Source: Methylomarinum sp. Ch1-1 (GTDB taxonomy: Bacteria; Pseudomonadota; Gammaproteobacteria; Methylococcales; Methylomonadaceae). From it: a DNA stretch of 64,000 bases. The DNA is taken from the NCBI RefSeq assembly GCF_030717995.2, contig NZ_CP157743.1, positions 4,304,501 through 4,368,500 of the forward strand, given 5' to 3'. Below, in pieces: positions 193-55,463 of the stretch. Position 1 is the stretch's first letter, and the number at the start of each line of letters is the position of its first letter. The notes beneath the pieces were generated by a model. That model ran no database searches, was not told the DNA's origin, and worked only from the letters and a program-made list of their open reading frames with translations. Both the position numbers and the translations under genes were made by a program.

Positions 193-444
193 GATATTAA
201 TCAGCAATTCCCAATTTGAGTATTTTGCGGGGTTTAGGGCATGAGGTGTGTCTGTCGAGGAGCGCCGTTCACCCAGCACCTAAATAAACGACGATAATAA
301 ATCATAGCCAATAGTCTATGGTATTTAGGTGCTGGGTAAACCCATCCCTGGGGGCTTGACGGCAGCATCCTTGCTGCCGACATCCTCGCCAAACACACCC
401 CATGCCCTTTTTGAACGCCAAAGTGGGAATTGCTGGATATTAAT
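193..444. repeat. MITE copy 1 (202–435) with 9-bp target duplication
   Basis: The element starts CAGCAATTCCCA and ends in the inverse, GGGAATTGCTG. It is flanked by perfect 9-bp direct repeats GATATTAAT at 193–201 and 436–444. It is 234 bp long only because a 67-bp palindromic element (271–337) sits inside it. Without that insert it matches the copy at 43239–43407 almost base for base. A third copy lies at 31624–31754. It has no coding capacity. The ends resemble those of the defective IS at 36117–37525, a possible source of transposase. Confidence 0.88.
271..337. repeat. 67-bp palindromic mobile repeat, copy 1
   Basis: The arms are ACCCAGCACCTAAATA and its exact inverse, around a roughly 35-bp centre. 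The element sits inside MITE copy 1; the MITE at 43239–43407 shows the uninterrupted sequence. A second copy, also 67 bp and in the opposite orientation, lies at 46978–47044. REP-like or MITE-like mobility is inferred from the filled and empty sites. Confidence 0.8.
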
Positions 445-31614: not shown

Positions 31615-31763
31615 TTATCACAGCCGCAATTCCCAGATTGAGCATTTTTAAAGCCATGGATTTAGGTGCTGGAGGCTTGACGCCGGCCTACCTGCCGCCA
31701 AGTCCTCGCCAGATAGACTCCTTACCCTCTTCGATCCTCAAATGGGAATGACTGTTATCACAG
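31615..31763. repeat. MITE copy 3 (31624–31754) with 9-bp target duplication
   Basis: The left end is GCAATTCCCAGATTGAG and the right end CTCAAATGGGAATGACTG. Perfect 9-bp direct repeats TTATCACAG flank it at 31615–31623 and 31755–31763. It is the most diverged of the three copies. It holds ATTTAGGTGCTGG (about 31660–31672), matching only one arm of the 67-bp palindromic element, as if that insert had been partly deleted. It occupies the 373-bp gap between yebC and serB, which contains no supported gene. Confidence 0.8.
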
Positions 31764-31798
31764 CCGCCATCCGCTGATCGAATTGAGGATGGGAACAG

Positions 31799-36106: not shown

Positions 36107-37535
36107 CACTTGACTGCAGCAATTCCCAATTTAAAACCTTACGTTTTCCTGGGTATTAGATTTTCACCATATAGCATGAACCGCATCAGATGCTGCCAAT
36201 TATCAAAAGGCATGAACTGAAGCAAGGTTCGGAATTGTTCGAAGAAAGTGCGCCTGGAGGGCGCCGCATGGCGGACGGCCCGGTAAGCCTCGTCCAACCA
36301 TTCAAGCGCGGTATGAGCGAGGAAAGCCAATAAGTTAAGGGTCGCCAAGAAGTTGGACAAATGCTGCTTGCCGTGGGCAAAGTTATGCTCGAAATGATAG
36401 CCGTGATTCTTGAGAACATTGTTGTTTTCGTTCTCTATTTTCCAGCGCGCGCGGCCTGCAGCGACCATGTCGATCACATTGTGTTCGTCGAGGGTGTGTG
36501 ATGTCGCCCAGGCATTACGGTAGACCACTTCTTGTTTGGCATTGAGGATCGTCACTTCGCACCAATTGACCATTAACGCATCGTCGCTGTTGCGGAGCGG
36601 GACTTGATTGAGGTAACGGTAGCGTTCGGTCAGGCGTTGTTTGCCGTTCCAACGGCTTTTTTCGAGCGTTTGGACCTCGCCGGTCCGGGTAAAATCGTCG
36701 AGCCATTCGTACAATAACGCATGGGAATCAGGCTTGCAGACGAACAGAAAATCCAGGTGCTGCGCACGCACGGCCTCACAAAACGGCTGGTGACAATACA
36801 AATCATCGCCCAGCACGGTGATGCCTCGAGGAGCGTAATGAGCACCCACGTGGTGAGCCAGCGCTTGGCCGCCGCCAATTCGCAGTCTTGTTTGTCGACG
36901 CCGTCTTGGACGCGAACAAATTCCGGCGGCAAAGGCACCACGCGGCTTTGCCCGGGGGCGACAATCACCGGTGTCACGACGGTGTGACGGTATAAGGTTT
37001 GGCCGTTTTTCAGCGTTTGTTGAGTACAGCACGGACAGGAAATCTTTTCCGAGCTGAAGGAATCGGTGCCGTCCATCGCCACCAACAAGGTGCCGCCAAC
37101 ACTCATGAACGGCTTCAGACAACCCTGCGTGTAAAGCTGGTCACCCACCTCGGCCAACACCGGATAGAGTGTTTCCGGTGCAATCGGATCCAGCAGGTTG
37201 CCGATTTGGCTGGTCGAAGGAATTTGATGGACACCAAAAATTGATTACGCATTATTTCGATTGTGAAGCTTTTGCATTCGCTGCTGATAGTCCAGAAAAG
37301 ACGGGCTTTGCGTAAAGAAGACCGAGAAGGCGCTCAGGGCGGCATCTTCCACCGCATATTTCCGATTGTTGCCGGGTTTGCGGTGGTCAGGCAGGTTTTC
37401 GAAGGTAGTGCGAATCTGGTTAATTATTTCCAAGTCCATTTGAATTGACCTATGGGATTATGGGGGGTGATTTACAGGTTTAAAATTGCCACTATTTTAC
37501 CAGGGTTTTAAATTGGGAATTGCTGCACTTGACTG
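36107..37535 (-). mobile_element. Defective insertion sequence, 36117–37525, with target duplication
   Basis: The terminal inverted repeats are CAGCAATTCCCAATTTAAAA at 36117 and the inverse ending at 37525. They are flanked by the direct repeat CACTTGACTG (36107–36116 and 37526–37535); 9 or 10 bp of it is target duplication, because the ends are partly palindromic. The element is 1409 bp and carries one transposase gene, broken by a stop and a frameshift. Its ends match those of the three MITE copies in this window, so it or an intact relative may have mobilised them. Confidence 0.88.
36139..37439 (-). pseudogene. DDE transposase, broken by a nonsense codon and a frameshift
   Basis: It starts MDLEIINQIRTTFENLPDHR and continues with YAVEDAALSAFSVFFTQSPS. 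A TAA at about 37245–37247 interrupts RNNA*SIFGVHQIPSTSQIG in the same frame (CAA to TAA would explain it). After VDKQDCELAAAKRWL the frame shifts near 36860. The rest reads ITVLGDDLYCHQPFCEAVRA, FLFVCKPDSHALLYEWLDDF, and ARWKIENENNNVLKNHGYHF, the last giving the catalytic Glu of an IS4-superfamily DDE fold. C-terminal end PRKT at 36139. I cannot assign the exact IS family. Confidence 0.8.
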
Positions 37536-37827: not shown

Positions 37828-37971
37828 GTAATTATTCAGCGTATTTTTATCAGAGGGAGTAGGCTATTGATTTATCGGGCTGTCTGCAACAGGACGTTGC
37901 AGTCAGAGCTTACATGGAAGTATTCACGCGTCCCGAGAAATCAATGGTCTACTCCCTAAACCCTGAAAGAT

Positions 37972-43229: not shown

Positions 43230-43416
43230 GCACCATCCCAGCAATTCCCAGTTTGAGTATTTATGCGGGGTTTAGGGCATGGGGTGTGTCTGTCGAGGAG
43301 CGCCGTAAACCCATCCCTGGGGGCTTGACGGCAGCATCCTTGCTGTCGACATCCTCGCCAAACACACCCCATGTCCTTTTTGAACGCCAAACTGATGGAA
43401 ATTGCTGGCACCATCC
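43230..43416. repeat. MITE copy 2 (43239–43407) with 9-bp target duplication
   Basis: The element starts CAGCAATTCCCAGTTTGAG and ends GGAAATTGCTG. It is flanked by GCACCATCC at 43230–43238 and 43408–43416. At 169 bp it is the uninterrupted form: it reads GAGCGCCGTAAACCCATCC where copy 1 contains the 67-bp palindrome. It lies between convergent genes. Confidence 0.88.
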
Positions 43417-46819: not shown

Positions 46820-47113
46820 CTCACAGTGTAATTATTCAGCGTAGTTTTACTAAGAGGGAGTAGGTTATTGATTTATCGGGCTGTCTGCAACAGGACGTTG
46901 CAGTCAGAGCTTACGCCGCACAGGGAAGTGCAAGTGCCGCGTGAAGCAGGATGCTGTTAGCTGCCATGGATGTATTCACCCAGCACCTAAATACCCTAGG
47001 TTATTGGCTATGATTAATAATCTTCGTTAATTTAGGTGCTGGGTGAACGCGTCCCGAGAAATCAATGACCTACTGCCTAAAACCCGAAAGATACTGAATA
47101 GTTACCTCACAGT
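46820..47113. repeat. GTAAYTATTCAG-family repeat (46828–47105) with 8-bp duplication
   Basis: The ends are GTAATTATTCAGCG at 46828 and CTGAATAGTTAC ending at 47105. The 8-bp target duplication CTCACAGT lies at 46820–46827 and 47106–47113, abutting the stop of the DUF2802 gene. A 67-bp palindromic element is inserted in it. It shares its body with 37828–37980 and includes a segment (GCCGCACAGG … GTTAGCTGCCATGGATGTATTC) that recurs at about 53110–53180. Confidence 0.82.
46978..47044. repeat. 67-bp palindromic mobile repeat, copy 2 (inverted)
   Basis: The arms are ACCCAGCACCTAAATA and ATTTAGGTGCTGGGT. The centre (GGTTATTGGCTATGATTAAT) is the reverse complement of the centre of the copy at 271–337. 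It interrupts GTATTCACGCGTCCCGAGAA, which is continuous at about 37918–37937. The length is 67 bp in both copies. Confidence 0.82.
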
Positions 47114-47794: not shown

Positions 47795-48156
47795 GTTTCT
47801 TTGTAACTATTCAGCTTGATACTGAGAAAATATTTCTTTTACTGTAACTACTCACCCCCATTCGTAGGGTGGATAAGCGGAGCGCATCCCCCCGGATCGG
47901 CATCTTTGGTGGATGCGCCCTTCAGGCTTATCCACCCTACATGCTGACCGCCATGGATGGTGGAAATGCCGATTTTGCCATAATGCCATGGATGGCATGT
48001 AGTAGAGCAATGCAGGAGCAATTGCCGATAACGCCATGGAGGGCGTGTATTAGAGCAATGCAGGAGCAATTGCCGAGGAGCAAAAATCGGCCCTGCCGCG
48101 TTCGATAAGTGGGGCGAGCATTTTTATACTGAATAGTTACGTTGTTACGTTTCTTT
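47795..48156. repeat. GTAAYTATTCAG-family composite repeat (47803–48148)
   Basis: The left arm GTAACTATTCAGCTTGATAC copies that at 37705; the right end is ATACTGAATAGTTAC plus GTTGTTAC. Direct repeats GTTTCTTT flank it at 47795–47802 and 48149–48156. It contains a second end motif GTAACTACTCACCCC, an inverted GTAGGGTGGATAAGC / GCTTATCCACCCTAC pair (about 47872–47940), and two tandem units of about 48 bp from 47983 centred on GCAATGCAGGAGCAATTGCC. The whole element fills the gap between cheW and the 55-codon gene, which has no other gene. Confidence 0.65.
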
Positions 48157-52956: not shown

Positions 52957-53255
52957 CTAACCGCCATCGCTAAGGAACGAGTATGAAATAACTTTTCCAA
53001 ATGTCGGAAGAGGAATCGGTGGCTCGATTGACAGGTGTCGGCGGCATGGCAGATTTTTTCCTCCTGCAAAATCTGCATTTCCACCATCCCTGGCGGGCAG
53101 ATAGCCGCCGTCAAGCCTACGCCGCACAAGGACGTATAAGTGCTGCGGTAAGCAGGAGCTGTTAGCTGCCACGGATGTATTCACGGCGTCCTGTCAAGCG
53201 AGTTACCGAACCTCCACAAAGCCTACTGTTTCGGGAAGTTATTTTGTGCATATTC
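52957..53255. repeat. Gap between cheB and cheA with repeat sequence
   Basis: No gene is supported. GCCGCACAAGGACGTATAAG to GTTAGCTGCCACGGATGTATTCAC (about 53110–53180) matches part of the repeat at 46910–46977. Possible element ends AAATAACTTTTCC (about 52986) and GGGAAGTTATTT (about 53234–53245) are inverted, without a clear target duplication. The insertion splits cheA from cheB in an otherwise tight operon. Confidence 0.5.
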
Positions 53256-55463
53256 CTAACCGGCATAGCGATTCATTAGTCCCGGCACATCGAGGATCAA
53301 TGCAATCTTGCCATCACCGGTAATGGTCGCTCCCGCCAGGCCTTCCAAGCCTTGCAACTGTGCCCCCAAGGGCTTGATCACGACTTCCTCCTGTCCGATC
53401 AATTGGTCCACGACGAAGCCAACCTGCCGACCGCCTGCATTGACGACCACCACATGACTCATCGTCTGTTTGTTAACCTCGTAGCCGGGCTCATGAACCA
53501 GCCATTCCCCCAAATAAAACAACGGCAGCGCTCTTTCCCTGACGATTACCACCGGCTGCCCGTCGACGACATTGGTTTTGCGCAAGTCCAAATCCAGTAT
53601 CTCCACGACACTGGCCAGCGGCAAGGCAAAAGCCTGATCGCCCAGTTTGGTCATCAGCGTCGGCATGATAGCCAACGTCAACGGCACCTTGATGACGATG
53701 GTGCTGCCGACGCCTTCCTCGGAGTCAATTTCCACGACGCCATTCATTTGAGAAATACGCGTTTTAACCACATCCATGCCGACCCCGCGTCCCGAAACAT
53801 CGGAGATTTCGGTTTTGGTGGAAAAACCCGGTAGAAAAATCAAGTTATAGCATTCCTTGTCATCGAGTCTGGCGGCAGTCTCCGCATCCATCAAGCCTTT
53901 TTCGATGACTTTTGCCCTCAATGCATCGGCATTCATGCCCTTGCCGTCATCCTGAATCGACAACAGGATATGATCCCCTTCTTGGGATGCGGTCAGAATC
54001 ACCAAACCTTCCCTGGATTTGCCGGCCGCTTGCCGCTGTTCGGGCAATTCTATGCCGTGATCGACAGCGTTGCGCACCAGATGCACCAACGGGTCGGCCA
54101 GGGCTTCGACCAGATTCTTATCGAGATCGGTTTCCTCCCCGACCAGCTCCAGACGGATTTCCTTATTCAGACTTCTGGCCAAGTCCCTGACCACGCGGGG
54201 AAAACGGCCGAACACCTTCTTAATCGGCTGCATCCGGGTCTTCATCACGGCCAGCTGCAAATCGGCCGTCACCACATCGAGATTAGAAACGGCCTTGGAG
54301 AATTGCTCCCCGGTCTCTTCATTCGCTTTCAGCGTTTGAAAACGGTTGCGCACCAGAACCAGTTCCCCCACCATGTTCATGATTTCATCCAATACATGGG
54401 TGTCGACTCGAACGGTAGATTCCCCTTGCGCAGGCGAGGCTTTGTGATTTTTTTTCGCGTCCTTAGCGGTAGAGGCGTTGACCGGTTTTGCCGCCGCTGT
54501 GACCGGTTCGACTTTTTTCGGCGTTGGCTCGGAGGACGCTTGCGGCTTTGTGATTTTTGTTTCGTTAACCGCAATTTCCGGTTCGGCGACTGATGGAACG
54601 TTGGTTTTGAGGTTTTCGCCGCTGAATTTACCCTTGCCATGCAGTTCATCCAACAGCTGCTCGAACTCTTCCTCGGTAATATCGCCGGAATCGCCGGTCT
54701 TCGCAGTCACAGCCTCGTTTTCCGTTTGTTGTTGCGCCGATACGACGTTTTCTCCGGAGAACCGGCCCTTGCCGTGCAGTTCGTCTAACAGCTGCTCGAA
54801 CTCTTCTTCGCTGATTTCGTCCGCGGCCGGCTGCTCGGCGGGGGCGCTGTTCGATTGAGGCGTTGGCGAACCGCCCTTGCCATGCAAGCTGTCTAAAAGC
54901 TGTTCAAATTCTTCTTCGCTAATCTCATCATCGGAAGCCTGGGCGCCGCCCTCTTCGCCGCTGTCCAGCATCGCCTCAAATTCCTGCTCGACGATATCGG
55001 TCACCGCTGCCGGCTCGACAATAGGGGCCGGCTCCACGCTGACTACATCGCCGCCCGGAAAGGGCTCTGCTTCCTCGGCCGCGGTATAGCTCCGCAGACG
55101 TTGCAACAGCGCCTGATTGGCCGGCTCAGGTTGGTTGCCGGCGCGCACTTGGTCAAACATTTCATTGACGACGTCGACAACCTGCAGGATGACATCCATT
55201 AAGTCGGCGGAAACTTGACGATCGCCCTGCCTGAGCACATTGAAGACGTCCTCAGCGCTGTGGCAGACATCGACCAGCGCATTGATCGCCAGAAAACCTG
55301 CGCCCCCCTTGACGGTATGGAACCCTCTGAAAATGGCGTTCAATAAGTCCAGGTCATCCGGTGATTGCTCTAGCTCGACCAGCTGTTCACCCAACGACTC
55401 GAGTATCTCTCCGGCCTCCACCAGGAAGTCTTGTAAAATTTCGTCATCCAGATCAATCGACAT
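53256..55463 (-). CDS. cheA: Chemotaxis histidine kinase CheA with triple linker repeat
   Basis: 735 residues. The Hpt domain has the phospho-His near residue 49 in FRGFHTVKGGAGFLAI. Residues about 175–290 hold three copies of an acidic motif I-S/T-E-E-E-F-E-Q-L-L-D-x-L-H-G-K-G. No P2 domain is evident. Then come the dimerisation domain (STVRVDTHVLDEIMNMVGEL), the HATPase domain (PLVHLVRNAVDHGIELPEQR, ILLSIQDDGKGMNADALR, SGRGVGMDVVKTRI) and the CheW-like domain to the end. It phosphorylates CheY and CheB. The motif repeats are probably docking sites; their partner is unknown. Confidence 0.94.
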   Translation of the reverse strand: MSIDLDDEILQDFLVEAGEILESLGEQLVELEQSPDDLDLLNAIFRGFHTVKGGAGFLAINALVDVCHSAEDVFNVLRQGDRQVSADLMDVILQVVDVVNEMFDQVRAGNQPEPANQALLQRLRSYTAAEEAEPFPGGDVVSVEPAPIVEPAAVTDIVEQEFEAMLDSGEEGGAQASDDEISEEEFEQLLDSLHGKGGSPTPQSNSAPAEQPAADEISEEEFEQLLDELHGKGRFSGENVVSAQQQTENEAVTAKTGDSGDITEEEFEQLLDELHGKGKFSGENLKTNVPSVAEPEIAVNETKITKPQASSEPTPKKVEPVTAAAKPVNASTAKDAKKNHKASPAQGESTVRVDTHVLDEIMNMVGELVLVRNRFQTLKANEETGEQFSKAVSNLDVVTADLQLAVMKTRMQPIKKVFGRFPRVVRDLARSLNKEIRLELVGEETDLDKNLVEALADPLVHLVRNAVDHGIELPEQRQAAGKSREGLVILTASQEGDHILLSIQDDGKGMNADALRAKVIEKGLMDAETAARLDDKECYNLIFLPGFSTKTEISDVSGRGVGMDVVKTRISQMNGVVEIDSEEGVGSTIVIKVPLTLAIMPTLMTKLGDQAFALPLASVVEILDLDLRKTNVVDGQPVVIVRERALPLFYLGEWLVHEPGYEVNKQTMSHVVVVNAGGRQVGFVVDQLIGQEEVVIKPLGAQLQGLEGLAGATITGDGKIALILDVPGLMNRYAG

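Follow-up and report, generated by a model that had tools for sequence, protein, structure and literature searches.

A MITE family of Methylomarinum sp. Ch1-1 with insertion sequence-type ends and a YPAL-like hairpin core

The stretch of DNA analyzed here (the window, 64,000 nucleotides) is contig C2 4304501–4368500 of the 4.77-Mb genome of Methylomarinum sp. Ch1-1, and three short repeats in it are, judged from their sequence, mobile non-autonomous DNA transposons (MITEs). The MITE is very probably a composite, in which ends of the type carried by a resident insertion sequence (IS) surround a core resembling the YPAL/RU-2 repeat of Yersinia; the core would have been captured in an ancestor and the unit would be moved in trans. 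The shared ends, target duplications, empty sites, intact transposase frames and the homology and fold of the core were read from the sequence and are described below.

Window copies, genomic family and empty sites

Copy 1 (202–435, plus strand) is a long form of 234 bp and lies between 9-bp target duplications at 193–201 (GATATTAAT) and 436–444. Copy 2 (31624–31754, plus strand), with duplications at 31615–31623 (TTATCACAG) and 31755–31763, is degenerate and shortened to 131 bp. Copy 3 (43239–43407, plus strand; L001 in the script) is a short form of 169 bp with duplications at 43230–43238 (GCACCATCC) and 43408–43416. The MITE copies terminate in CAGCAATTCCCA-type inverted repeats. Sequence reading and a script reproduced exactly the positions and 9-bp direct repeats given in an earlier note on this DNA, and the elements were also supported by alignment (copies 1 and 2) or genome search (copy 3). 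The same note had called copies 1 and 2 almost identical, which was wrong, because it is copies 1 and 3 that share two common blocks at 92–93% identity, whereas copy 2 is shorter and diverged. Copy 2 has one mismatch in its left end and two in its right (three in total), but its duplication is still perfect. Of the extra hairpin that marks the long form, it retains ATTTAGGTGCTGG as a remnant, and a search of the window with the core model R1 gave no match in it. The direct repeat of copy 2 runs four bases (CCGC) into the left end, where CAGC was expected (31615–31627 and 31755–31767). Elsewhere in the window, three repeats of ~76 nt with starts 108–135 nt apart (54609–54948) lie in a long minus-strand ORF (53256–55463) and are probably protein repeats, and a 48-nt repeat forms a tandem pair, 92% alike, at 47980–48075.

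The family was first described as having three members, which holds within the window and falls far short for the genome, where the end count puts it at more than a hundred. Searching the genome with copy 3 produced 299 first-look candidates, and the best 40 of them all had an E value of 2.9e-65 or better. The 12-base end CAGCAATTCCCA occurred 243 times in the genome versus 0 times for its reversed control, so these occurrences are not due to chance. Up to 14 of them belong to seven IS copies (see below), leaving ~229 and therefore, at two ends each, more than 100 elements.

Target duplications were scored at 64 end pairs drawn from the window and 103 genome loci (30 from the copy 3 search and 73 further genome loci), all having no more than two end mismatches per pair, a length of 100–260 and a recognisable core. 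An exact 9-bp duplication flanked 47 pairs, an exact 10-bp duplication 3, a duplication with one mismatch 4, and none was present at 10. At least two of these ten (L015_166 and L197_245) were alternative pairings, in which the element has a duplication with another end. As a control, left and right 9-mers of different pairs matched in 1 of 4032 pairings. The flanking 9-mers of other genome copies, which the earlier note had proposed to list, were duplicated at most of the tested end pairs. Looser end criteria yielded exact 9- or 10-bp duplications at 58 elements of 110–317 bp, which were selected for having one. The target 9-mers (53 sites) showed an A/T-rich middle and favoured G or C at both ends.

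Among relatives, 36 loci gave 25 end pairs, 18 of them with 9–10 bp duplications. Full-length matches to the MITE were found in 6 of the 61 genomes searched, own included (G000, G001, G010, G015, G021, and G036). The element has the features by which bacterial MITEs are recognised, namely short length, inverted ends, target duplications and many copies. A mechanical ORF listing contained a 101-aa ORF overlapping copy 2. Plasmid and phage collections searched with the MITE gave no match in either, and the literature on methanotroph MITEs, at the level of titles and the beginnings of abstracts, held none evidently about this element.

The joined flanks of the 58 elements, keeping one duplication, were compared with the fetched genome sequence, ignoring self-matches of loci. 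At least 5 of the 58 matched elsewhere with no gap across the junction. A paralogous empty site for L008 was located in the window at 46828–46979 (plus strand; 152 bp, 98.7%, ungapped), within a repeat related to that at 37851–37961. Empty sites for L030 and L197 were both found in L033 (96%), that for L149 also in L033 (97%), and that for L005 in L141 (88%). The comparison with related strains, also proposed earlier, gave a syntenic copy 3 locus without the element in the congener G001. Both neighbour genes were present there in order, 308 bp apart versus 545 in the window, and G001 aligned better to the joined flanks of copy 3 than to the filled locus, its target being too diverged for a base-by-base alignment. 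Four further genomes of the genus, searched for this locus, matched over a short stretch of one gene only. The earlier reading of a MITE family inserted separately with 9-bp duplications is thus supported by the duplications (54 of 64 pairs), the empty sites, the congener locus and an IS with the same ends.

A partner insertion sequence

An IS of 1409 bp with MITE-type ends (CAGCAATTCCCAATTTAAAACC) was found in the window by sequence reading and genome search (36117–37525, minus strand). It is flanked by 10-bp duplications at 36107–36116 (CACTTGACTG) and 37526–37535, read in the sequence and with an end script, and its transposase frame is broken. The genome holds seven copies of this IS, 99–100% identical, one of them split, and all six unsplit copies have 9- or 10-bp duplications. 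An intact 433-aa frame is present in two copies of 1410 bp (L032 and L035). The IS end has 16 bases in common with the left end of copy 1 and 12 with the left end of copy 3. A potentially autonomous element with the same ends, as looked for in assigning a MITE, is therefore resident in the genome, and this 1.4-kb IS is the likely mover of the family. Since the IS and the MITE share just 12–16 end bases, we infer, rather than observe, that the ends are recognised in trans.

The intact transposase matched the Pfam domain DDE_Tnp_1 with 25.2 bits (cut-off 23). The NCBIfam IS4 model gave 19.4 bits versus a cut-off of 152, and the IS1380 model was also far below its cut-off. The spacing from E to K in the transposase, judged by eye, did not fit what we take to be the YREK motif of IS4. 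The partner resembles IS4-type DDE elements in its DDE_Tnp_1 domain and inverted ends, and several IS4 subgroups in its 9- to 10-bp duplications as far as the available source describes them. By eye, however, its ends do not correspond to any of the six patterns that this source shows for IS4 ends.

Loci of IS relatives were fetched in 80 cases, and 28 of them were inspected. In 23 of the 28, the best inverted repeat was CAGCAATTC- or CAGCAGTTC-like; three of the remaining five had no inverted repeat and two (Verrucomicrobiales MAG) had an unlike one. Six of the 23 had flanking duplications of at least 9 bp (that of L089 measures 11 bp and is off by one base), and another had one of 7 bp; this count leans upward, since end pairs that showed a duplication were favoured by the script. 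At E ≤ 1e-80, 16 of 121 genomes of the family, own included, contained a transposase relative. Among the six genomes with a full-length MITE, such a relative occurred in G000, G010, G015, and G036 (a fragment in G036), and none was found at this threshold in G001 and G021.

Fold, distribution and function of the core

The interior of the MITE is, on covariation support, a three-way-junction hairpin rather than a decayed transposase. In the consensus fold, complementary arms (P1, 21 pairs) enclose the hairpins P2 (9 pairs) and P3 (GCC...TTYAC...GGC, 6 pairs). In an alignment of 40 examples, 15 columns were invariant and 32 of the 36 pairs changed on both sides. Paired cells amounted to 92.6%, versus 69.7% for shuffled and 36–48% for slid alignments, and the covariation score was 0.627 versus 0.197 (shuffled) and 0.110–0.143 (slid). 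The 40 examples were hand-picked from 64 pattern matches and mix MITE cores with others, and these figures describe them only. Model R1 placed the core at 43270–43380 in copy 3 (minus strand, E 7.8e-31) and at 300–411 in copy 1 (minus strand, E 2.3e-12), where it is interrupted by the extra hairpin. Two further cores lie on the plus strand of the window. One has different arms and no adjoining CAGCAATTCCCA-type end (37851–37961, E 1.7e-17), and the other has insertions in two loops (53007–53219, E 2.9e-14) and sits within a 285-bp stretch with other ends (52973–53257).

What the earlier note took for a nested insert in copy 1 does consist of 69 bp of extra sequence (267–335, plus strand; borders set by aligning it with the short form), but it is common to a long subfamily at the same alignment place. 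This subfamily comprises 21 of the 58 duplication-flanked elements and measures 205–253 bp. The insert is, by alignment, an extra hairpin with arms CCAGCACCTAAAT / ATTTAGGTGCTGG, and its place is fixed, between the TTYAC and GGCG of the core. Read along the minus strand, ...GGGTTTAC is followed directly by GGCG... in the short form, and the long form inserts its 69 bases there (CCAGCACC...GGTGCTGGGTGAAC). A second core type also carries the extra hairpin at this place (~46980–47048 of the window), and the loop of the hairpin occurs in two or more sequences, of which one is seen in both orientations. Its 15-base arm was counted 380 times in the own genome, 26 times in G015, 13 times in G021 and 6 times in G001, and was absent from the other 57 of 61 genomes. 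In a MITE of Methylotuvimicrobium buryatense 5G (G015; L244, near 1440–1500), extra sequence in the P2 loop could form a short hairpin like that of the long form. The repeats at 37851–37961 and 46828–47060 are two copies of another YPAL-like repeat, the first with a TACATGGAAGTATTCAC-type core and the second with the extra hairpin, and both lie near repeated ATACTGAATAG stretches.

Searched with R1, the own genome gave 2322 candidates, the best 150 of which all had E 5.2e-6 or better, some of them outside MITEs. At E ≤ 1e-4, 32 out of 398 genomes drawn from the phylum, own included, contained the core. All 31 others belong to the same class, where, with the own genus, 20 of 213 genera and, by a count of the listing, 14 families are represented. 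The weaker matches came from three genomes of one family and from G156 (E 1e-9 to 4e-7). A 25-base core motif alone occurred in 7 of 274 genomes of the class (the own genome and G015 among them; control 0), and a single IMG/VR contig (L332) contains it as well. In G052 and G058 the MITE matched in its middle only, and there, as in other genomes, long complementary arms that differ in sequence enclose this middle. With up to two mismatches allowed per end, both MITE-type ends were within reach in 1 of 68 core loci outside methanotroph MITEs, a sample in which 29 of the 31 other R1-positive genomes are represented by one locus each. This locus, L320 in G763, was the sole one outside methanotrophs with both end-like sequences, and the other ten scanned G763 loci lacked the pair. 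Around end-less cores (G763, G703, and G794), 3 of 20 loci had repeats of 8–9 bp and 17 had none of at least 7 bp; as the offsets of the three were unequal, no consistent duplication pair was present. A Halomonas record (11 places) and a Marinobacter plasmid record matched cores from other lineages. An exact-string literature search for core sequences found none, and the intergenic-repeat literature for Halomonas, Marinobacter, and Xanthomonas contained no such element by title.

The whole MITE folds at −97.6 kcal/mol (z −10.1), one long hairpin forms on either strand, and TTTTT follows the stem on the strand of copies 1 and 3. With home-made gene calling on short flanks, 54 of 55 copies were intergenic and 1 was inside a called frame. 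The fold, the T-run and the position between called genes would all suit a useful mobile terminator or RNA-stability hairpin, whose T-run, present on one strand, would terminate transcripts of the gene upstream. Among the 55 copies, tandem neighbours ran with the T-run strand in 15 cases and against it in 14 (divergent 9, convergent 6, neighbour uncalled 10), which shows no orientation preference and speaks against this role. The end-less cores of G052 (L221, L223–L229) also had, by eye, no four-T run after the stem. The mobile-terminator role was set aside on this lack of bias, and a selected hairpin of this kind appears rather unlikely. Because the intergenic copies show no orientation preference, we favor, with moderate confidence, a selfish mobile element.

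Relation to YPAL and origin of the composite

The primary paper on YPAL is said to be De Gregorio 2006. YPAL/RU-2 is a Yersinia palindromic sequence of ~168 bp, with a published RU-2 sequence of 168 bases (PMC2759123). In the available part of the description it is intergenic, multicopy and predicted to be mobile; its inverted repeats are internal, and its duplications, 3 to 26 bp long, lie at dyad symmetry or close to it (PMC2229807). The accessible passages give YPAL for Yersinia and Erwinia (PMC2229807, PMC2759123).

At the Rfam gathering score, six MITE or core loci gave no match, and six other core loci gave only RF02770 (Ysr224), in two of them (L304 and L306, both R1 loci). L321 and L329 matched Ysr224 over its full length below the gathering score (E 3e-4 to 5e-4), and L226 did not match it at E ≤ 0.005. 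Permissive Rfam searches also returned microRNA models, regarded as chance matches on long hairpins. The alignment score of L306 with published RU-2/YPAL was 127 (shuffle maximum 29). For the copy 3 core it was a modest 34 versus 25, and for L305, one of eight sequences compared, it was 25 versus 25 and not at the core. From these comparisons we judge the MITE core homologous to the Yersinia YPAL/RU-2 core, mainly through the chain from R1 via L304/L306 and Ysr224 to RU-2.

Like YPAL/RU-2, the MITE core has a hairpin P2, an AGCC(T/C)(A/C)CANGGATGNNTTYACGGCG hairpin P3 and complementary P1 arms. The MITE is likewise intergenic, multicopy and predicted to be mobile, as YPAL is in the portion of its description at hand (PMC2229807). 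The two differ in length and ends. The MITE has terminal inverted repeats, whereas those of YPAL are described in that portion as internal, and its duplications are 9 bp, rarely 10, in contrast to the 3 to 26 bp given there for YPAL. The published RU-2 sequence, as printed in the section available, neither begins nor ends with MITE-type ends. As the MITE lacks two YPAL features (its inverted repeats are terminal and its duplication is of nearly constant length), we file it as carrying a YPAL-like core and not as YPAL. At listing level, the literature retrieved under the name YPAL held nothing that connects it with methanotrophs or with a core occurring across the class, a link that may already be published. 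A similar partnership is described for RUP of Streptococcus pneumoniae, a short hairpin element sharing ends with the resident IS630-Spn1; unlike the present MITE, RUP has other ends and TA targets, and the passage on it mentions no YPAL-like core (PMC2229807). QMITE2 of Coxiella burnetii has, by its figure legend, the same layout (7–9-bp repeats, 23–29-bp ends, 113–145-bp core), and homology is not claimed. Further sources, seen in part for the YPAL, MITE and IS comparisons, were PMC2267715, PMC5193452, PMC10969869, PMC3733652, and PMC2266710.

The composite reading, in which we have good confidence, would work as follows. In each unit, a YPAL-like core would be enclosed by a pair of DDE-transposase IS ends (CAGCAATTC[CT]CA-type, with a 9- to 10-bp duplication). 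Transposase made from the intact IS copies would recognise the shared ends in trans and move the unit as DNA, and staggered joining would leave the 9-bp duplications. Most likely, an ancestor of these methanotrophs was where two IS ends captured a YPAL-like repeat, giving the core a new mover, and a variant with the extra hairpin in one core loop would then have been amplified as the long form. The capture and its direction, like recognition in trans, are what we infer.

The reverse direction, with initial spread of the core as part of this MITE and loss of the ends in other lineages, could account for methanotrophs holding cores both with and without ends, for the occurrence of degenerate ends, and for L320, in another family, with both end-like sequences at loose match. 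It is improbable against a full-length MITE confined to 6 of 61 genomes (own included) while cores occur in 14 families, and against a published RU-2 that, in the section available, has no such ends at its start or finish. Likewise improbable is an ordinary deletion-derived MITE whose interior is shrunken, by chance palindromic IS sequence resembling YPAL by convergence, which fits the shared ends, duplications and IS partner and the explanation of MITEs by decay of transposase and core in the consulted part of a MITE review, but not the 15 invariant columns and strong covariation, the other arms of the core in many genomes, there without these ends in 67 of 68 loci, or a search with the whole IS, whose best 40 of 57 candidates (E ≤ 1e-5) were IS copies or distant relatives and no MITE.

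Other ends were also seen around the core. Four loci (L205, L233, L236, and L250), from M. buryatense (G015) and G036, have this core enclosed by CTCCCTT ... AAGGGAG ends flanked by TA, and in L205 (M. buryatense) a MITE with a 9-bp duplication is nested inside such an element. TTAGGAA...TTCCTAA-like ends surround a YPAL-like core in L339, L340, and the window stretch 52973–53257, whose copy has extra sequence in two loops; the exact TTAGGAA-type end pattern was found by the script in the window copy only. These few loci suggest a third kind of end around the core. Going beyond the composite reading, and on the basis of the few loci with other ends, we propose tentatively that the core may be a class-wide, modular, self-folding passenger, captured independently by unrelated ends (CAGCAATTC[CT]CA; CTCCCTT; possibly TTAGGAA) and travelling elsewhere without any, with the near-invariant P3 hairpin as a recognition site of a factor that would aid the spread or survival of its carrier.

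By the homology and model matches above, a core previously named only in Yersinia-type repeats is present in many other bacteria. YPAL appears to be one member of a superfamily of structured repeats, spread over 14 families of one class in the 398-genome sample. A conserved fold can accordingly pass for a nested insertion or for the decayed interior of an IS, and such readings call for caution. The MITE that encloses a YPAL-like core offers one testable candidate mover, with a resident transposase and known ends and target length. The old question of how hairpin repeats without an enzyme of their own spread would thereby become accessible to a simple assay.
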